Shown: positions 17,862-38,225 of the stretch, piece by piece
Layout: each line of letters starts with the position of its first letter
Numbering within the stretch: the first letter of the stretch is position 1
Assembly (NCBI GenBank): GCA_018304985.1
Contig: JAGVWP010000030.1
Coordinates: 1-40,935 of the forward strand
DNA length: 40,935 bases
Direction: 5' to 3'
DNA from: Candidatus Pacearchaeota archaeon
Lineage (GTDB): Archaea > Nanobdellota > Nanobdellia > Pacearchaeales > GW2011-AR1
Notes under the pieces: model-generated
Seen by the model: the letters and a program-made list of their open reading frames with translations, nothing else
Databases searched by the model: none
Told to the model about the DNA's origin: nothing
Position numbers and translations under genes: made by a program

Positions 17862-18686
17862 TTATTTTCTCATAATTGATTCCACCATTTCCCACTCTAC
17901 TTTTGGTTTTTCTTTTGATGGATGTTCCATCAAATAATTATAATTAATCACAAAAAATTCAATAAATAATATCGCTCTGTCTAATCTCTTAAATCCTCGG
18001 CAAACATGCAACCATAAAGCTGGAAATTCATTTATTCTTTCAGCACGATTATTGCTTAATTTCATTAATTTTTTATTGTGAACAATCCCAACTGCTTCAA
18101 AATGTGCGATAACATGCCTTGTTTTTCTCCCAAAAACTTTTTTACATGCTCTTTTATATCCTTTTAATCCGTCGCTGATAATTATTTCAGGAGAAAAACC
18201 CGATATTTCTTTCGCTTTTTGCAAAACAATTTTTGCATTATTGCAATCTCTTTCAAAACTTACATGAATTGCAATGATATTGCTATTGGAATCAGATACA
18301 ATCCAAAGATAAGCATGTGGATCTTTGCTTCCTTTAACATGAATAAATTTTTCATCAACATGCCAAATAGATGAAAAATTTATTGGTTTTATCAATGATA
18401 ATTTAATTAAATATGGGGCAAATTTAACAACCCAATTGTAAATTGAAACATGGCTTACTTTAACAAATTCAATTTTCTTTAAAATTCTTTTAACATTTCT
18501 CGTCGATAAGGGAAATGATCTTAGAAATATAGCATTGATTATAATTTCTTTAGAAAATCTATGCCTTACAAATATTCCTTTCTCACAGAATCTTCTATGG
18601 CAATCGTTACATTTATATCTTTGAACTCCCTTGTTATCATGTCCGTTGAGGACGATGTAAGAAGAGGAGCAGTATATACAAATCAT
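17862..18686 (-). CDS. DDE transposase with N-terminal zinc ribbon (IS6/ISA1214-like)
   Basis: The 274 residues begin with a zinc ribbon (CIYC and CNDC, about 3-29), then an HTH-like region and the catalytic core. The acidic triad is visible as WHVDEKFIHVKG (first Asp, about 109), IIISDGLKGY (second Asp, about 169) and NNRAERINEF (Glu, about 215). The gene starts about 14 bases after the DUF2080 gene, with a GAGGAG ribosome-binding site. The frame is intact. Confidence 0.92.
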   Translation of the reverse strand: MICIYCSSSYIVLNGHDNKGVQRYKCNDCHRRFCEKGIFVRHRFSKEIIINAIFLRSFPLSTRNVKRILKKIEFVKVSHVSIYNWVVKFAPYLIKLSLIKPINFSSIWHVDEKFIHVKGSKDPHAYLWIVSDSNSNIIAIHVSFERDCNNAKIVLQKAKEISGFSPEIIISDGLKGYKRACKKVFGRKTRHVIAHFEAVGIVHNKKLMKLSNNRAERINEFPALWLHVCRGFKRLDRAILFIEFFVINYNYLMEHPSKEKPKVEWEMVESIMRK

Positions 18687-19813: not shown

Positions 19814-20842
19814 ATGGTGAACAAACTAAAATTTATTGATTTATTTGCAGGAATTGGAGGGTTTAGGATTGCTTTAGAAAGTCAAGGAGCAGAATGTGTT
19901 TTTTCTTCTGAATGGGATAAATATGCGCAAATAACCTATAAAGAAAATTTTGGAGAAATACCTGCAGGAGATATTACAAAAATAAATGAAACAGACATTC
20001 CAGAACATGATATTTTATGCGGAGGTTTTCCTTGCCAAGCATTTAGCATTTCGGGAAAACGAAGAGGATTTAATGATACTAGGGGAACACTTTTCTTTGA
20101 TATTGCAAGAATAGCAAAATATCACAAGCCAAAAGTATTATTTTTAGAAAATGTAAAAAACTTAACGAAGCATTATAATGGCAATACTCTTAAAATAATC
20201 TTAAGGACTCTTGAAGAAATTGGATATGATGTTTATTATAATGTTTTAACAGCAAGTCATTACGGCGTTCCACAGGCAAGAGAAAGGATTTATATTATTG
20301 GATTTAGAAGAGATTTAGGAATAACTAATTTTGCTTTTCCTAAACCAAATTATAAAAAAATTTATGTTAGAGACATACTTGAACAAAAAGATAATATGCA
20401 AGAATATATAATTAATAGGACAGATTTAAAATTTTGGGATAGGCATGAAACACCATCACTTAAACCTATCCAAATTGGACAAATAAATAAGGGGGGGCAA
20501 GGGGAAAGAATTTACAGCATAAATGGCCATGCAATTACTTTATCCGCATATGGCGGAGGGGTTGCTGGAAAAACGGGAGCTTATTTAGTTGACGGAAAAA
20601 TAAGAAGATTATCTCCAAGAGAATGCGCAAGAGTTCAAGGATTTCCAGAATGGTTTAAAATTCCAGTTACTAAATTTGAAGCATATAAACAATTTGGAAA
20701 TAGTGTTTCTATTCCAGTTATTGGCACAATATTTAATCAAATAAAAAATGCTTTAAATTTTAATAAATCAACTATCACAATGACCTCTGATATTGGAAGG
20801 GAATATGATTATACAATTCAGAAAAAATTTATCAATGCTTAA
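19814..20842 (+). CDS. DNA (cytosine-5) methyltransferase of a type II restriction-modification system
   Basis: The 342 residues have the ordered C5-methylase motifs: FIDLFAGIGGFRIAL (I, SAM binding), CGGFPCQAFSISG (IV, catalytic Cys), FLENVKNL (VI), QARERIYIIGF (VIII), and RLSPRECARVQGFPE with QFGNSVSIPV (IX-X). The methylated sequence depends on the target region around residues 185-260 and cannot be read. It protects the host from the endonuclease that follows. The first motif is complete and the frame is intact, so activity is likely. Confidence 0.95.
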   Translation: MVNKLKFIDLFAGIGGFRIALESQGAECVFSSEWDKYAQITYKENFGEIPAGDITKINETDIPEHDILCGGFPCQAFSISGKRRGFNDTRGTLFFDIARIAKYHKPKVLFLENVKNLTKHYNGNTLKIILRTLEEIGYDVYYNVLTASHYGVPQARERIYIIGFRRDLGITNFAFPKPNYKKIYVRDILEQKDNMQEYIINRTDLKFWDRHETPSLKPIQIGQINKGGQGERIYSINGHAITLSAYGGGVAGKTGAYLVDGKIRRLSPRECARVQGFPEWFKIPVTKFEAYKQFGNSVSIPVIGTIFNQIKNALNFNKSTITMTSDIGREYDYTIQKKFINA

Positions 20843-20843
20843 A

Positions 20844-21599
20844 ATGAAGGATAAAGAATTATTTGGTTCAGAAACTGCAAAGGATGGTTTTCGGAATGAG
20901 GAAGAGGTTATTGTTAAATTTAACAATTGGAAAAAAGATAAAATTGCTCAAGAATGGCTTGTAATTATGGGTTATGTTCTAAATAATATAGAATATGTTA
21001 AAGCAGTTAAAATAACTGGAAATTATAAAACGGATGTTCAGGTTCAAGTAACTATTAAACTTAAAGAAGCAATAGATTGTGAAAATTTATCCATAAAATT
21101 AGCAAGCAATCCTCGAGGTTTTAATCAAATTGATAAAAGAGAAATAGAGAAATATGTTAAAATGTGGAGAATACCTAAAGATATTGAAGAAATATTAAAA
21201 TTATTTACTGGCAAAAAAACTCCGCAAAAAACAAAGGGATTGAATGATGCTAGAAGAATGTTATTAACTGAAATGCCAAAAAAAGACCAATTAAGAATTA
21301 TAAATTTCTTTGATAAAAATAAGATTCTTATTATATCTGATATTTTAAAAGGAAGAGAAAAATTCACTGCCGATTGGATGTTAGTAATTCTAAAAAAAGA
21401 TGAGCAAAGTTATGAATGGGCGTTAAAAGATATTAATGTTGTTATGAATATTTTTGGGCAGGGAGATGTGAGAATTACTGAACAAGGAAGTTTAAAGATT
21501 GGGCAAATTGGAATGCAAAGAAAGGGAGGAGATGGAGGGAGAGAATCCGCTAAGATGTTGCAATTTAAAATAAATCCATGTTTATTATTTAAAAGTTGA
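20844..21599 (+). CDS. Type II restriction endonuclease
   Basis: The position directly after the methylase (start one base beyond its stop) and the sequence support a restriction enzyme. An earlier in-frame ATG at 20835 overlaps the methylase and is an alternative. Motifs include YKTDVQVQVTIK (about 61-72) and LSIKLASNPRGFNQIDKR (about 80-97), which could be the Asp and Lys of a PD-(D/E)xK site, and the C-terminal MQRKGGDGGRESAKMLQFKI, a block seen in some type II enzymes. The family subtype and cut site are not determined. The protein is about 251 residues. Confidence 0.82.
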   Translation: MKDKELFGSETAKDGFRNEEEVIVKFNNWKKDKIAQEWLVIMGYVLNNIEYVKAVKITGNYKTDVQVQVTIKLKEAIDCENLSIKLASNPRGFNQIDKREIEKYVKMWRIPKDIEEILKLFTGKKTPQKTKGLNDARRMLLTEMPKKDQLRIINFFDKNKILIISDILKGREKFTADWMLVILKKDEQSYEWALKDINVVMNIFGQGDVRITEQGSLKIGQIGMQRKGGDGGRESAKMLQFKINPCLLFKS

Positions 21600-21603
21600 A
21601 AAA

Positions 21604-22041
21604 ATGCCGGATACTTTTTCTAAAAAGAAAAGAAGCCAAATAATGTCTAAAATTAAAGGCAGGAATACTTCTCTTGAACTTAATTTTAAAAAGTTGATAA
21701 GAGGATTAAAACTTGAATATCAACCCAAAATCTTTGGAAATCCCGATTTTACTTCAAAAAAATTGAAAATAGCCATTTTTATTGATAGTTGTTTTTGGCA
21801 TAAATGTCCTAAACACTTCAGAAAACCAACAGCAAATAGCATTTATTGGACACAAAAAATAAATCGCAATGTTGAAAGAGCGAAAGAAGTTAATAATTAT
21901 CTTAAAAAACAGGACTGGAAAGTTGTGAGACTTTGGGAACATGATATAAAAAATAATACTAAAAAGGCTTTAACAAAAATACAAAAAATTATTCAAAAAA
22001 GAAATAATTTCGTCTTGTTAAAAACGCCTTCTCCGCTCTAG
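21604..22041 (+). CDS. vsr: Vsr very-short-patch repair endonuclease
   Basis: The 145 residues match Vsr: TFSKKKRSQIMSKIKGRNTSLE at the start, FIDSCFWHKCPKHF (about 58-71) with the metal-binding Asp, Cys and His residues, and YWTQKINRNVERAKEVNNYL, then WKVVRLWEHD. Vsr nicks next to T:G mismatches that arise when 5-methylcytosine deaminates, which is why it accompanies C5-methylases. Together with the methylase and endonuclease this completes a three-gene cassette, probably acquired. Confidence 0.93.
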   Translation: MPDTFSKKKRSQIMSKIKGRNTSLELNFKKLIRGLKLEYQPKIFGNPDFTSKKLKIAIFIDSCFWHKCPKHFRKPTANSIYWTQKINRNVERAKEVNNYLKKQDWKVVRLWEHDIKNNTKKALTKIQKIIQKRNNFVLLKTPSPL

Positions 22042-29439: not shown

Positions 29440-29925
29440 ATGGAAAATAGAAATGTTGGATTTTTAGTTATTGGAATATCTCTATTAATAATTGGGATAG
29501 TATTTATCTTTAATAATGCTTTAAAAAACATTGTGGGAGCCAGTTGCAGCGCTACACATGGTGCACAAGTTTGCCCAATGTATGATACTATAACAACCCA
29601 AACTTATCTTGCTATTGCCATTGTTGGAGTGTTAATTATTATAGGTTTGGTTTTAATTTTCACAAAGCCAGATGAAAGAATTGTTGTGAGGAAAATTAAA
29701 GAGAAAAAGCTCGAGAAGAAAATAGATTTATCCGGATTAAAACAAGAAGAGAAACAGGTTTTTAAGTTAGTTCAAGAAAACGATGCTGTTTTTCAGGCAG
29801 ATCTGATTGAAAAAACAGGATTTGGAAAAGCAAAGATGTCAAGAATAATTGACAGATTAGAAGGCAGAGGATTAGTTGAAAGAAAAAGACGTGGAATGAC
29901 TAATATTGTTGTGCTGAAGGATTAA
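29440..29925 (+). CDS. Membrane-anchored MarR-like HTH regulator, paralogue 1
   Basis: The 161 residues have two membrane helices (about 8-28 and 56-76) separated by a short external loop with Cys residues (SCSATHGAQVCPMYD). After a charged linker, residues about 98-160 are a winged helix: LKQEEKQVFKLVQENDAVFQ and KAKMSRIIDRLEGRGLVERK. It is a paralogue of 37728-38225. Being a membrane regulator with two loop Cys, it may sense redox or metal outside the cell and control the downstream Cys-rich genes. CTTAACAT between the TATA-like CATATAC and the ATG resembles the operator of the paralogue. Confidence 0.8.
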   Translation: MENRNVGFLVIGISLLIIGIVFIFNNALKNIVGASCSATHGAQVCPMYDTITTQTYLAIAIVGVLIIIGLVLIFTKPDERIVVRKIKEKKLEKKIDLSGLKQEEKQVFKLVQENDAVFQADLIEKTGFGKAKMSRIIDRLEGRGLVERKRRGMTNIVVLKD

Positions 29926-30027: not shown

Positions 30028-30747
30028 ATGGAAAATAAAAACCAAACAAATCAAGAAGAACTGAAAGGAGGAAAAAAGACCAACTACGAAACCGTAGCGC
30101 AAGTAGTTATAATTGCTGTTCTTGCAATTTTGCTTGTATATAATGGAGCAAAGATTTACGGAGCTGGCAATGGGAGAAGTATAACAGGCAATGCTGTAGC
30201 AACAGGAATTGGAACTGTTTCAGCTTTAGATGTATTGCCAAAAGGAACTCCAGATATTTACGGAAGTAAATTGGGAGTTGAGTATGATGATGTAAGTGCA
30301 AGCAACCCTACATCAACAGAAGCAGCGATACAAAAATTATCTGCTTATGAAGATAAACAGTTAAACAGCGAGCAAATGGCCCGTTACATAAAAATTGGAA
30401 GTTCAATTGCATGTGAATATTGCTGTGGCGCTAAAACACTTGTTTTTAGTAATGGAGAACGCGCTTGTGGATGCGCCCATAGTTATGCAATGAGAGGTTT
30501 AGCAAAATATTTGCTAACTAATAATCCTGAAATGACAGATTTAGAGATTCTAGAAGAATTGGCAAAATGGAAAGTTTTATTCTTTCCAGGAGTTCATGAA
30601 CAGAAAGCTGAAGCATTGAAAGCAAATGGCGTTGATTATACAAATTATGTCAACCTTGCTTCAAACCTTTACAGAGGCGCCGAAAATCAGGTAACTGCAA
30701 CAACTACAAGTGCAGGCGGAAGTGGTCAAATGGTTGGTGGATGCTAA
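30028..30747 (+). CDS. Membrane-anchored Cys-rich exported protein (PCYCGC-like) ending in MVGGC
   Basis: The 239 residues have a short cytoplasmic N-terminus, one membrane helix (about 24-44), the sequence SITGNAVATG, then a large external domain. Around residues 128-165 is ACEYCCGAKTLVFSNGERAC followed by GCAHSYAMRGLAKYLL, with the CGCxH core like the PCYCGC family (PF13798-like); this suggests metal or thiol binding. The protein ends GGSGQMVGGC, sharing MVGGC with the next two proteins. It is transcribed from the palindromic promoter at 29972. Confidence 0.77.
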   Translation: MENKNQTNQEELKGGKKTNYETVAQVVIIAVLAILLVYNGAKIYGAGNGRSITGNAVATGIGTVSALDVLPKGTPDIYGSKLGVEYDDVSASNPTSTEAAIQKLSAYEDKQLNSEQMARYIKIGSSIACEYCCGAKTLVFSNGERACGCAHSYAMRGLAKYLLTNNPEMTDLEILEELAKWKVLFFPGVHEQKAEALKANGVDYTNYVNLASNLYRGAENQVTATTTSAGGSGQMVGGC

Positions 30748-30837
30748 ATGAGAGATTTATTTTTTTATTTTACTTATTTAGCTTATATTCATAAATAAAA
30801 CCTAAAATAAAGACTTAAAAATAAAAAGAAAAATAAA

Positions 30838-31089
30838 ATGGACTGCTGCAAAACAAAAAAACATAATGATTGTTGTAAGGATTTAGAGAAAATGGAAGAA
30901 TTGAAAGGAGGTTATAGCAAAATGCAGATAAGAAAGAAAACTTTAATGTGGATTGTAATAGGAGTTTTATTCCTGGCGGTATTGTTTCTAACATTTAAAG
31001 TGTCTGGAAATACTTCAGCTGTACAGACTGCAGGACAGGTTGTAAAAAGTGCAGCACCTGCTGGAGCAGGAATGGTCGGAGGCTGCTGA
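30838..31089 (+). CDS. Small Cys-rich membrane protein ending in MVGGC, paralogue A
   Basis: The 83 residues have a Cys-rich head (MDCCKTKKHNDCCKD), one membrane helix (TLMWIVIGVLFLAVLFLTFKV) and a short external tail ending AGAGMVGGC. ACTTAAAAATAA about 25 bases before the ATG supports the long start; an internal ATG at 30922 has an in-frame GGAGG before it, so a second, shorter product starting MQIRKK is possible. The membrane helix is nearly identical to that of the next protein, a tandem duplication. Confidence 0.72.
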   Translation: MDCCKTKKHNDCCKDLEKMEELKGGYSKMQIRKKTLMWIVIGVLFLAVLFLTFKVSGNTSAVQTAGQVVKSAAPAGAGMVGGC

Positions 31090-31108
31090 TGATCTGCTAA
31101 TAAAAAAT

Positions 31109-31369
31109 ATGAAAATGAACAAAAAAACATTTATGTGGATTATTATAGGCATACTTTTTTTAGCAGTGCTCTTTTTGACATTTAAAGTATCAAGCCTAAC
31201 TGGAAACGCAGTTGCCGGGCAAACCAGTACTGGAAAACTTGATACAACTGGATGGACAGAAAATGAAATAATGAATTATGAAATGCACGGAACAGTTCCA
31301 GCAAGGGCTCAAGGAAAAGTAGCGCCAGTTAGTGCCTCAAGCGGAGCAGGAATGGTCGGTGGATGTTAA
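31109..31369 (+). CDS. Small membrane protein ending in MVGGC, paralogue B
   Basis: The ATG at 31109 is preferred over the upstream 31049, which overlaps the previous gene. The 86 residues have a membrane helix (FMWIIIGILFLAVLFLTFKV), SLTGNAVAGQ as in the 30028 protein, then WTENEIMNYEMHGTVPARAQ and the end ASSGAGMVGGC. The helix is a duplicate of that in paralogue A, but the tail carries an extra segment. It follows paralogue A by 20 bases, so they are likely co-transcribed. Confidence 0.75.
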   Translation: MKMNKKTFMWIIIGILFLAVLFLTFKVSSLTGNAVAGQTSTGKLDTTGWTENEIMNYEMHGTVPARAQGKVAPVSASSGAGMVGGC

Positions 31370-31442: not shown

Positions 31443-32015
31443 ATGATAAAAACAAAAATACAAGGTAAACAAAGAAAGAAGAGTAAAAGAAACAGCCGGG
31501 CTTATAAAACATCTATGTTTTTATTAACAGCTATATTAATTGTGGTTGCAGTTATACCCAGTGTTATGGCGCATTGCCCTCTTTGCACTGCAGCCACAAT
31601 TGTTGGAGTTGGGGTAACTAGGTCTCTTGGCTGGGATGATTCTATCGTGGGCATTTTTGTTGGAGCCATGATTGTTTCTTCAGCATTATGGATGAATAAC
31701 ATTCTAAAGAAAAGAAATATTGGGGGCAACGCCTTCTTAAGAATAGGCAGCATAACTATTGCTACTTTTGTTCTTACCATCTTAAGCTTTTACTATGCAG
31801 GCATATTTGGCCCGGCAAACACCTATAGGATATTTGGCATGGAGAGCATAATCTTTGGCTCAATTTCAGGGGCTGTTGTATCATTTGTTACTTTTTTTGT
31901 TAGCAATGAACTAAAGAAAAAGAATAACGGGAATGTTTTATTTAACTATCAAACTATGGTTCTTACATTTGGATCATTAATATTAAACGCATTATTATTT
32001 TGGATGGTGTTTTAA
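31443..32015 (+). CDS. Multipass membrane protein with an exported CPLC motif
   Basis: The 190 residues have a basic start, a helix acting as signal anchor (SMFLLTAILIVVAVIPSVMA), then HCPLCTAATIVGVGVTRSLG, where a CxxC with an adjacent His would be just outside the membrane. Four to five further helices follow (VGIFVGAMIVSSALWM, ITIATFVLTILSFYYAG, IIFGSISGAVVSFVTFF, LILNALLFWMVF). Families with HCPLC after the first helix occur in archaea; I recall no function. Metal or thiol chemistry is suggested by CPLC and the neighbours. Confidence 0.72.
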   Translation: MIKTKIQGKQRKKSKRNSRAYKTSMFLLTAILIVVAVIPSVMAHCPLCTAATIVGVGVTRSLGWDDSIVGIFVGAMIVSSALWMNNILKKRNIGGNAFLRIGSITIATFVLTILSFYYAGIFGPANTYRIFGMESIIFGSISGAVVSFVTFFVSNELKKKNNGNVLFNYQTMVLTFGSLILNALLFWMVF

Positions 32016-32017
32016 TA

Positions 32018-32491
32018 ATGGCTGAAATAAACTTTATAATATATGGAATTATAGGTTTATTTTTTGTACTTTTAGCTGCTAAAAATGTTATTGAAAATAT
32101 TAGAAAAAATAAAGGTAAGAATCTTAAAGGTAATTTCTGCGTTATTTGTATATCTATAATCTTGACATGGTTAGGTTTATTGGTTTTATACTGGTATGGC
32201 TTATTTGACAATATTTTAGCAATTTCGTTATTAATGGGCATGTCTCTTACAGGCATTTATTATTTTATTGATAAAAAAATTGGAAAGAAAAATAAAAAAC
32301 TCAAGATATTCAGGCTTCCATTTATTTTAACTCTAATAATTATTGCTTATTATGTTATCAATTTTAAAGGTTTTGAAAATATTATCAAAAGCGCCTTAAT
32401 ATTTATTATTTTATGGGCATTGTTTGTTTTAATTTATTTTTATAATAATACGAAATTTATAAAAAAATTAATTGAATGTTGTAAAGGATAA
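32018..32491 (+). CDS. Hydrophobic membrane protein with Cys pairs, 157 residues
   Basis: The ATG at 32018, two bases after the previous stop, is preferred over 32000. The protein has five membrane helices. A CVIC motif lies in the second helix (NFCVICISII), and the C-terminus ends KLIECCKG. There is no recognised family. Tight spacing with both neighbours places it in the same operon. CxxC inside a helix could form part of a metal or electron path, but that is inference. Confidence 0.68.
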   Translation: MAEINFIIYGIIGLFFVLLAAKNVIENIRKNKGKNLKGNFCVICISIILTWLGLLVLYWYGLFDNILAISLLMGMSLTGIYYFIDKKIGKKNKKLKIFRLPFILTLIIIAYYVINFKGFENIIKSALIFIILWALFVLIYFYNNTKFIKKLIECCKG

Positions 32492-32493
32492 AA

Positions 32494-32958
32494 ATGAAAG
32501 AATATCATTATAATTATTTGTGGATTGGAATACTTATTATTTCTATATTTGGAACTTTTTTTATAATTAAAATGGCTTATGCAAATCCTTTAGGCCTTCC
32601 AGATTACGCTTTTACTAAGCCTGGAATAAAAGAGGCATATTCTTTTGCTAAATTAGGTAGTGATAAGTTAACAGGTTTACCATGTAACTGCGGTTGTATG
32701 TCTGATGCTGCAAATCATGGAGGTAGATTGCACTCAAGAGGCTTAATTGATTGTTTTATGCAGGGTAATGTAAATAATGGCGGGCAATGGGATGGACATG
32801 CAAGTGAATGCGGGTTATGTTATGAGGATGCATTATTAGCTAAGAAATTATATGAAGAAGGCAAACTAAAGCAAGAAATAAAATTAAGTCTAGAGGCAAA
32901 ATACGCAACTCAAATAATAAGCAATTCTACGGTATATGGAAAAATAGAGGTGAATTAA
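32494..32958 (+). CDS. Exported PCYCGC-motif protein
   Basis: The 154 residues have an N-terminal membrane anchor (about 8-28), then a domain with LPCNCGCMSDAANHGGRLHS, GLIDCFMQG and DGHASECGLCYEDALLAKKL (about 63-120). The order PCxCGC...H...DCF...H-x-xxCGxC matches the PCYCGC family, known in Bacillus and archaea; the function is unknown. Six Cys and several His would suit metal binding outside the cell. Its downstream neighbour overlaps with no gap. Confidence 0.82.
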   Translation: MKEYHYNYLWIGILIISIFGTFFIIKMAYANPLGLPDYAFTKPGIKEAYSFAKLGSDKLTGLPCNCGCMSDAANHGGRLHSRGLIDCFMQGNVNNGGQWDGHASECGLCYEDALLAKKLYEEGKLKQEIKLSLEAKYATQIISNSTVYGKIEVN

Positions 32959-33405
32959 ATGAAAATAAATGGCAAGGCATTAACATATGGAATATTAGCA
33001 GGAATAGGAATTTTGTTATTTTATATTTCTGTTCTTACTATCTTTCAAAGCTATGGGTTTGCTTTATCAGAATTTAGAAGATTGTGGCTGTGGATTGTTC
33101 CATTAGCTCTAGGATTTGGAATGCAAATAGGGCTTTATACTTCAATAAAACACGATGCAGCTATAAATACAGGAATGGCTGCTTCTGGAGGAGTTTCCGG
33201 AGGATCAATGATTGCATGCTGCAGCCATTATTTATTGAATATTATTCCATTAATAGGGATTACAGGATTAAGCGCATTTACTTCTTTTTTAATGGCATAT
33301 CAAAAAGCATTTTTTTCAATAGGAATTGCTTCAAGTATTCTTGGAATTATTTTAATGCTAAACCATAAATCAAAAATGAAAATAATGAAAGGAGGATTAG
33401 ATTAA
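32959..33405 (+). CDS. Membrane protein with a conserved CCSH-type motif
   Basis: The 148 residues have four membrane helices. The middle helix pair is SGGVSGGSMIACCSHYLLNI followed by IPLIGITGLSAF, and then MAYQKAFFSIGIASSILGI. I recall bacterial membrane proteins with a similar ACCxHhL...lPllGlsg...YQ arrangement in metal-related clusters; no name or assay is known to me. Adjacent Cys and His in a helix suit a metal path. The gene overlaps the next by one base. Confidence 0.73.
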   Translation: MKINGKALTYGILAGIGILLFYISVLTIFQSYGFALSEFRRLWLWIVPLALGFGMQIGLYTSIKHDAAINTGMAASGGVSGGSMIACCSHYLLNIIPLIGITGLSAFTSFLMAYQKAFFSIGIASSILGIILMLNHKSKMKIMKGGLD

Positions 33406-33650
33406 TGGCTGAAATAAACGGGAAAATGTTAATTTACATCGTTATTATAGCTGTTATAGTATTGCTCCTGTTAGTAAGTTTTGGTATTATAAAAATTGGA
33501 AATGCAAAAATTGTTAATGTTGCAAATAGCGTTAGCAATAGCAATATCCCTGAAAAATGCAGAATACAGCAAGGTTATACTGAACAATCATGGAAAGAGC
33601 ATCTAGGACATCATGCTGAAACACGAGATTGTTTGCAATATTTTCCTTAG
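33405..33650 (+). CDS. Small membrane-anchored protein with Cys and His
   Basis: The 81 residues have one N-terminal membrane helix (LIYIVIIAVIVLLLLVSFGI) and an external tail with CRIQQGYTEQSWKEHLGHHA and a final RDCLQYFP. Two Cys and three nearby His could bind a metal. A strong GGAGG ribosome-binding site precedes the ATG, which overlaps the previous stop by one base. The first residues MAEING echo MAEIN of 32018. Confidence 0.7.
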   Translation: MAEINGKMLIYIVIIAVIVLLLLVSFGIIKIGNAKIVNVANSVSNSNIPEKCRIQQGYTEQSWKEHLGHHAETRDCLQYFP

Positions 33651-33685: not shown

Positions 33686-33883
33686 ATGAGCTTATTTAAG
33701 AAAAAATGTGAATACTGCAAAAGTAAAATAGAGAAAAATGAAGAAGTATTCAGAGATGTTAAAGTTCCTGGTTTTATTGGAACAAGAAAGAAGGCATTTT
33801 GTAGTAAGGAACATGCTGATAGTTATGAAACTGAAATTGCAGGGCATTGCAAAAGTTCAAAGGGAGGAAGTTGCTGCGGCTAA
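33686..33883 (+). CDS. TRASH/YHS-like small metal-binding protein
   Basis: The 65 residues have CEYCKSKIEKNEEVFRD then AFCSKEHADSYE, the Cys-x2-Cys...Cys-x2-(H) arrangement of TRASH/YHS domains, and end with GGSCCG. TRASH domains are found in archaeal metal sensors and carriers, for example near copper genes. It lacks a signal or membrane helix, so it is probably the cytoplasmic member of the cluster. Confidence 0.75.
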   Translation: MSLFKKKCEYCKSKIEKNEEVFRDVKVPGFIGTRKKAFCSKEHADSYETEIAGHCKSSKGGSCCG

Positions 33884-37720: not shown

Positions 37721-37727
37721 TTTTTTG

Positions 37728-38225
37728 ATGGAAAATAAAAAACTTGGTGTTATGCTTATTATTATTTCACTGCTAGTCGGAGGCATTTTATTCTATTATA
37801 ACAACAGGCTTGCAGAACAATCGCGTGAATTAGGATGTTTTCCGAATGAAAACTGCTTTGCACTTGAAAAGGGGCTTTCAGTAACTCATTTTGCCATAGG
37901 TGTTTTCTCATTTATTCTTGCTCTTGGGTTCTACCTTTTATTTTTCAATAAAACCGAGAAAGCTATTTTAAAAAAACTTGAGGATGAAAAAAATAATAAG
38001 ATAGAAGACTCAAAATTCTCCATTATTATGAAAGCGCTTGATCCTTTTGAGAAAGAGGTTGTAAAAGCTGTTAGAGAGCAGCCTGGAATAACACAGAATA
38101 CTTTGAGATTAAGAGCAAATATGTCTAAAGCAAAGCTAAGTTATGTTCTTCAGGAATTGGAAAGAAGAGGCCTGATTAAAAGAATAAAAAAGGGAAAGAC
38201 TCTTGCAGTTTATTTGAGAGTGTAA
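37728..38225 (+). CDS. Membrane-anchored MarR-like HTH regulator, paralogue 2
   Basis: The true start is ATG 37728; a TTG one codon earlier is unlikely. The 165 residues have two membrane helices (about 7-25 and 52-74) with an external loop containing Cys (LGCFPNENCFALEK), a charged linker and a winged helix (QNTLRLRANMSKAKLSYVLQ then ELERRGLIKRIKKGK). It has the same layout as 29440-29925. The paired loop Cys suggest sensing of redox or metal. It carries the sufB-like operator, possibly as autoregulation. Confidence 0.8.
   Translation: MENKKLGVMLIIISLLVGGILFYYNNRLAEQSRELGCFPNENCFALEKGLSVTHFAIGVFSFILALGFYLLFFNKTEKAILKKLEDEKNNKIEDSKFSIIMKALDPFEKEVVKAVREQPGITQNTLRLRANMSKAKLSYVLQELERRGLIKRIKKGKTLAVYLRV

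Follow-up and report, generated by a model that had tools for sequence, protein, structure and literature searches.

Protein A of a Candidatus Pacearchaeota genome and the two small membrane proteins encoded beside it end in the same five residues, MVGGC. We find that this tag marks a widespread DPANN operon built around an undescribed family with an apparently new fold, and that the terminal motif changes jointly in the two types of protein that carry it. Few cells are as poorly understood as DPANN archaea, and very little is known of their envelope chemistry. The common end and its joint change point to a shared mechanism outside the membrane, probably a copper- or thiol-handling one. Our preferred reading, to which we give a probability of about 0.45, is that the products of this locus form a membrane-tethered thiol relay outside the cytoplasm, probably one for Cu(I), with protein A as receptor. 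With one peptide and one receptor, such a system would give a short handle on extracytoplasmic copper and thiol handling in anaerobic cells.

The features of the locus within the window, the whole 40,935-nucleotide stretch that was analysed, are collected in Table 1. A first-pass annotation had noticed that three adjacent proteins end in MVGGC. Their ends are SGQMVGGC, GAGMVGGC and GAGMVGGC, and the genome has no further copies: ATGGTNGGNGGNTGYTRR, the coding pattern, has exactly three matches in its 972 kb, all at the window locus, and the reversed control has none. The same annotation proposed a scan of DPANN proteomes with a list of neighbours. In our genome scan the pattern is carried, much more often than by chance, by 16 of 92 relative genomes and by 99 of 371 genomes of the phylum (about 3 genomes for the reversed-pattern control), mostly as pairs or triplets a few hundred bp apart, and the neighbours were catalogued in 152 loci. 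Among 148 Bacteroidota genomes there are four pattern matches, of which two have no stop after them and one lies on a protein A contig.

Table 1. Features of the tagged locus in the window
Feature	Coordinates	Strand	Evidence or remark
Membrane-anchored winged-helix (MarR/DUF7343-like) regulator, probable regulator of the locus	29440..29925	+	Pfam PF24034 E=1e-10, MarR_2 6e-8
Protein A: N-terminal TM anchor, helical domain with CxxCCG...CGCxH, flexible tail ending GQMVGGC	30028..30747	+	
MVGGC tag codons of protein A and stop (ATGGTTGGTGGATGCTAA)	30730..30747	+	Sequence, genome pattern match
Arm protein 1: Cys-rich N-terminus MDCC..DCC (longest start), TM helix, low-complexity linker, GMVGGC end	30838..31089	+	Tag at 31072-31089
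Arm protein 2: TM helix, linker with DTTGWTENEIMNYEMHGTVPAR element (His/Met, short helix), GMVGGC end	31109..31369	+	Tag at 31352-31369
Polytopic membrane protein, N-terminal AHCPLCT; conserved neighbour (C3)	31443..32015	+	79/152 A loci
Membrane protein ending ECCKG; conserved neighbour	32018..32491	+	Cluster in 31/152 loci
Exported PCYCGC / CYCXC-family protein	32494..32958	+	PF13798 E=9e-14, NF041379 E=5e-12; 11 loci
Polytopic membrane protein with GGSMIACCSHYLLN; conserved neighbour	32959..33405	+	Cluster in 45/152 loci
Single-TM protein with YTEQSWKEHLGHH..C element, resembling the arm 2 linker element	33405..33650	+	Related cluster, 31 loci
Small FCS/treble-clef-like Cys protein ending GGSCCG, possible metal binder	33686..33883	+	Weak zf-FLZ E=0.002, below cut-off

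The tag and protein A occur together. In the 371 genomes the tag is never seen without A (99 of 99 pattern genomes encode it; Fisher 1e-87, the genomes being MAGs and phylogenetic dependence being ignored here as in the other tests). A profile of A has matches in 102 of these genomes, namely all 99 that are pattern-positive and three of the remaining 272, two of which have QVGGC tails and one IVGEC. This profile was seeded from tag-positive loci, and a tail-independent sample gives the same picture. Scanning GTDB contigs by core-domain patterns yielded 80 loci from Pacearchaeota, Woesearchaeota, Aenigmatarchaeota, Micrarchaeota, Diapherotrites and one bin labelled Bacteroidetes; here A ends in MVGGC in 75 loci, is tailless in four and has a variant end in one, and a tagged arm lies within 2 kb of A in 77 of the 78 loci with room for one. 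All 21 tailless A proteins sampled have tagged arms nearby; one of the 21 is a short second A ORF, and its neighbour is tagged. In a Micrarchaeota-centred sample A is found in 9 of 146 genomes. The bin labelled Bacteroidetes (genome G418) has one contig, L256, with protein A and MVGGC, most likely a misbinned DPANN contig. Protein A is absent from the plasmids and viral contigs searched, so we discarded a plasmid or virus origin of the locus.

The first-pass annotation claimed a conserved extreme C-terminal Cys on membrane-anchored proteins and made its conservation among orthologues decisive. The claim holds: the Cys is terminal in 136 of 136 tailed A proteins and in 178 of 179 unique arms, the single exception ending in Cys-Gly. 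Within the tag, G(-3) and C(-1) hardly ever change, substitutions at V(-4) and G(-2) are rare, and Q can replace M(-5). The 15-nt tag is identical in only 8 of 124 A/arm pairs; synonymous codons otherwise vary freely, and therefore selection acts on the peptide. Given this conservation and the concerted change described next, we regard the MVGGC tag as almost certainly a functional, selected feature.

The most informative result is that in five independent clusters the motif is altered alike in A and its arm. Both proteins end in QVGGC in L122, L184 and L293 (one of them from the Micrarchaeota set), both end in MAGGC in L180, and the A and arm ends in L232 are MAGACG and MAGSCG; the single discordant variant is L109, with MVGAC in A and MVGGC in the arm. 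Among about 131 pairs there are 6 variant A and 5 variant arms with an overlap of 5, for a hypergeometric probability of 2e-8 that ignores relatedness. Recent gene conversion is unlikely as the source of the common tails because the tag codons differ between the A and arm genes; for instance, in L122 they are CAG GTA GGA GGA and CAA GTA GGA GGC, respectively. Linker type (LPxMVGGC versus other) agrees in 121 of 129 A/arm pairs, which partly reflects lineage. Three lineages have Gln in place of Met, which is therefore not an obligate metal ligand; this pattern argues that M belongs to a recognition surface and that Cys carries the chemistry. Two further ORFs ending in LVGGC, both in L120, were judged to be chance out-of-frame ORFs.

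In protein A, an N-terminal TM anchor is joined by a linker to a domain of roughly 150 residues bearing CxxCCG...CGCxH, and a tail follows. CxxCC and CGCxH are both present in 155 of 157 complete sequences. Pfam has no family for the window protein or 79 relatives (only scattered noise at E>0.01), NCBIfam gives no match, and a PDB sequence search returned nothing better than E=0.11. The AF2 model is mainly helical with a mean pLDDT of 84.8 and most of the domain above 90; a Foldseek comparison of this model with the PDB gave 44 matches, none at E<=0.001. By these searches and the model, protein A is an undescribed family with an apparently new fold. Confidence in the model falls below 50 in the linker of A and recovers to a mean of 65 in the last residues, compared with 55 for an arm predicted alone. 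This recovery weakly hints at docking in cis, with the proviso that column conservation itself raises the score.

Two sets of possible relatives or fusions were seen among these loci. Tailless A proteins of the LEAQ type in L057:352-1560, L061:12007-13245 and L137:5502-6719 carry an N-terminal fusion to a polytopic membrane domain with GAICPVCQS or GICPVCQS, a domain encoded by its own gene in L119 and L176. In one genome of the Micrarchaeota set, L291:8881-9879, close to the A locus, encodes a distant second protein (CCDNPTFFPDCNHGMAALGLAELLASQ..., ending EASGC) with a weak match to the A profile, which may be a remote relative of A.

The arms, one to three of which lie beside protein A, are mostly 50-110 residues long and consist of an N-terminal TM helix, a disordered linker rich in Ser, Gly, Ala, Gln and Pro, and the tag. 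They were found by motif with limited variants, a search that would miss strongly altered ends. Across 43 arms from the named loci and the window, the sole invariant columns are M, V, G, G and C, as is also the case within the family of arm protein 1 (A5), and the sequences are otherwise diverged (mean identity 21%). Exactly one Cys follows the TM helix in 179 of 179 unique arms. A linker element W[TS]xxxxMxYExHG is present in 46 of the 179 and an MHP element in others; in the AF2 prediction of arm protein 2 a helix spans residues 51-60. A positive-inside bias around the TM helix is weak for both A (+0.85 versus +0.35) and the arms (+1.07 versus +0.46). Together with the exported neighbours, it suggests that the tails of both proteins project outside the cell.

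According to the first-pass annotation, homology between A and the next two proteins was limited to an EELKGG segment and a membrane anchor. The anchor stands (hhalign probability 70%, 30 columns) and is all that A and the arms have in common besides the tag, which makes it possible that the arms are "headless" relatives of A. The annotation also asked whether the motif was confined to one duplicated gene family: it is confined to one locus type, but it has two carriers that share only this anchor. EELKGG, on the other hand, is weak evidence of homology and likely a ribosome-binding-site effect. Its coding sequence is AAAGGAGG, and 14 of 179 arms have this 7-20 nt before an in-frame ATG, where it looks like the ribosome-binding site of an internal start; the same 8-mer is also present in some A genes where no start follows. 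Because AAAGGAGG precedes an in-frame ATG in arm protein 1, the true start of this arm may be the ATG just after it. MDCC starts are conserved in 12 arms, which suggests that the longer form is also real. In the window (30838-30924) and in homologous arms (for example L188:7019 and L211:7028) an N-terminal MDCC...CC extension stands before AAAGGAGG and the in-frame internal ATG. Such arms may have a dual start, with one product that is long and bears a cytoplasmic Cys-rich head and another that is short.

Genes of copper and thiol chemistry are associated with the locus. In the 152 loci the commonest companions of A are arms (141), the winged-helix regulator family (95) and the AHCPLCT membrane protein, followed by a three-repeat Trx_3-like protein (56), DsbD_TM/CcdA-like proteins (44), cupredoxins (36), DsbA-like proteins (23) and HMA P-type ATPases (23). 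In one relative the AHCPLCT protein is fused to a rhodanese domain, PF00581 (L056:7234-8109). A DUF411/CopG protein is present in 50 of the 152 loci at a median of 0.4 kb from A, and in 50 of 102 genomes with A versus 3 of 269 without (p=2e-29), several of them on a contig other than that of A. CopG, a periplasmic protein of thioredoxin fold, has a tetranuclear copper cluster and takes part in copper resistance under anaerobic conditions (PMC7558416). A copper ATPase scores above the TIGR01511 cut-off in 14 of 16 tag-positive relatives versus 26 of 76 tag-negative ones (p=1e-4), and in 8 relatives it is on the A contig, within about 11 kb of A. COX1 is above cut-off in 0 of 371 genomes; heme-copper oxidase being absent, assembly of cytochrome oxidase copper centres is ruled out as the role.

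Starting from the observed tag and its concerted evolution, we infer the following relay chemistry. On tails that project outside the cell, the terminal Cys would move about as a soft ligand or thiol and dock at the CxxCCG...CGCxH site of A, acting in cis when it comes from the tail of A itself and in trans when a headless arm supplies it. Metal or electrons would pass between A, CopG-type proteins, a Trx/CcdA chain and membrane Cys proteins, with MVGG as the recognition part and Cys as the chemistry. The most uncertain step is the cargo, copper or reducing equivalents, and a putative Cu(I)-handling class for A and the arms is drawn from the genomic association. Several points count against the relay: the Met to Gln change in three lineages, the modest gap in tail pLDDT (65 versus 55), a topology that rests on a weak charge bias, and the half of A-positive genomes without DUF411. 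The window's own genome is among the latter; it has its copper ATPase on another contig, and PCYCGC and Cys-rich membrane proteins as neighbours. Somewhat more tentatively than the relay itself, we propose a DPANN-specific system in which a C-terminal pentapeptide combines a docking motif with a reactive thiol, Cu(I) or electrons are exchanged, through the terminal Cys, between the new-fold receptor A and headless arms tethered to the membrane, and receptor and tags co-evolve by lineage.

The single Cys of each arm and the presence of several arms per A would also fit cross-linking, in which the terminal Cys residues of A and arms join through disulfides or a metal-thiolate cluster into a hetero-oligomer around A, with no shuttling. 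That tailless A is always accompanied by arms, and that both partners carry the same motif with concerted variants, is likewise as expected. However, a simple disulfide needs neither MVGG nor its concerted change, and these loci also contain disulfide isomerase and reductant genes (CcdA, Trx), whose products would favour the reduced state of the Cys. We therefore consider cross-linking unlikely.

A processing or attachment signal, an archaeal equivalent of sorting tags read by a hypothetical transpeptidase or acyl or prenyl transferase that modifies the Cys or cuts before it, would account for five near-invariant residues at the extreme end of a variable linker, and a co-evolving reader enzyme would fit the concerted variants. 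We judge it a little less probable again. No other gene is as constant as A (the next are the winged-helix family at 95 and the AHCPLCT protein at 79 of 152 loci), and the carriers are limited to A and arms while sorting tags are usually found on many proteins; moreover, a TM anchor is already present, and the Cys is followed by Gly in L232. Known signals differ in architecture. LPXTG, PEP-CTERM and archaeosortase signals precede a C-terminal TM helix and a basic tail. MVGGC resembles these in being a short C-terminal signature common to otherwise unrelated exported proteins, but here the TM helix is N-terminal and nothing follows the last five residues, which rules out a sortase or archaeosortase signal. 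CaaX/Rab-type prenylation places Cys at -4 or in a CC/CXC end of a cytoplasmic C-terminus; the tag has a single Cys at -1 (-2 in L232), no CC or CXC, and a tail that is probably extracytoplasmic. The lipobox Cys of lipoproteins comes directly after an N-terminal signal peptide, and a lipobox is ruled out by the C-terminal position of the conserved Cys. Ubiquitin-like and ThiS-MoaD sulfur carriers have a beta-grasp fold ending in GG, and they too were rejected: the model of A is helical, the arms have no fold, the end is GGC rather than GG, and there is no Pfam match. Thus, among the functions offered by the first-pass annotation (lipid attachment, cross-linking, metal relay, sorting signal), the neighbours favour a metal or thiol relay and the architecture speaks against lipid attachment and a known sorting signal. 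Its remark that no archaeal signal of this form has been described is borne out: this type of C-terminal Cys motif is absent from the existing family libraries and the literature searched, where "MVGGC" appears in unrelated papers only and neither a matching signal nor a matching paper was found.

Being short, terminal, invariant and preceded by a disordered linker, the tag behaves like a linear motif, as would a regulatory peptide or degron bound outside the membrane by a protease or sensor that sets the stability of A and the arms. We find this improbable, since such recognition needs no absolutely conserved Cys and no protease is constant at the locus, even the M56 peptidase being found at only 16 of 152. 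Least probable is that the arms are recently duplicated, truncated copies of A with the tag as a passive relic, despite the faint similarity of the anchors and the similar linkers before the ends (LP-type agreement as above), because a relic would decay first whereas the tag is the sole invariant part of the arms, its codons differ between A and arm in 116 of 124 pairs, and it is kept across several DPANN phyla.

The working principle of the proposed relay has a counterpart in DsrC, in which a penultimate Cys on a flexible end delivers sulfur to a partner, DsrC-Cys111 being persulfurated by DsrEFH (PMC3397948). Like DsrC/TusE (TIGR03342), A and the arms have one conserved, putatively functional Cys at or next to the C-terminus of a flexible arm, which in DsrC/TusE enters the partner's active site; the analogy is one of working principle only. 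DsrC is soluble and cytoplasmic and has a fold of its own, whereas the arms are membrane-anchored, probably exported and without a folded domain. For the DsrC fold there is no Pfam or NCBIfam match of A or the arms, and no PDB fold match of A at E<=0.001. CopG/DUF411 proteins (PF04214) are partners at the locus, extracytoplasmic, Cys-rich and tied to copper export genes, but they lack a terminal-Cys tag, and A and the arms have no DUF411 match, the DUF411 proteins being separate neighbours. The PCYCGC/CYCXC proteins are also exported and carry CxCGC and CxxC motifs, and they are found in the window operon and at other A loci; in the literature searched PCYCGC is mentioned only incidentally. 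A relationship of A to these proteins, suggested by the Cys pattern, was rejected (hhalign probability 3%, no Pfam match).

Elsewhere in the window, positions 37725-38225 encode another membrane-anchored protein of the winged-helix family to which the probable regulator belongs. A DNA cytosine methyltransferase, a companion ORF and a Vsr-like endonuclease at 19814-22041 form a probable restriction-modification set. Lastly, a zinc-ribbon and DDE-type transposase-like ORF on the minus strand at 17862-18686 may belong to an insertion element.
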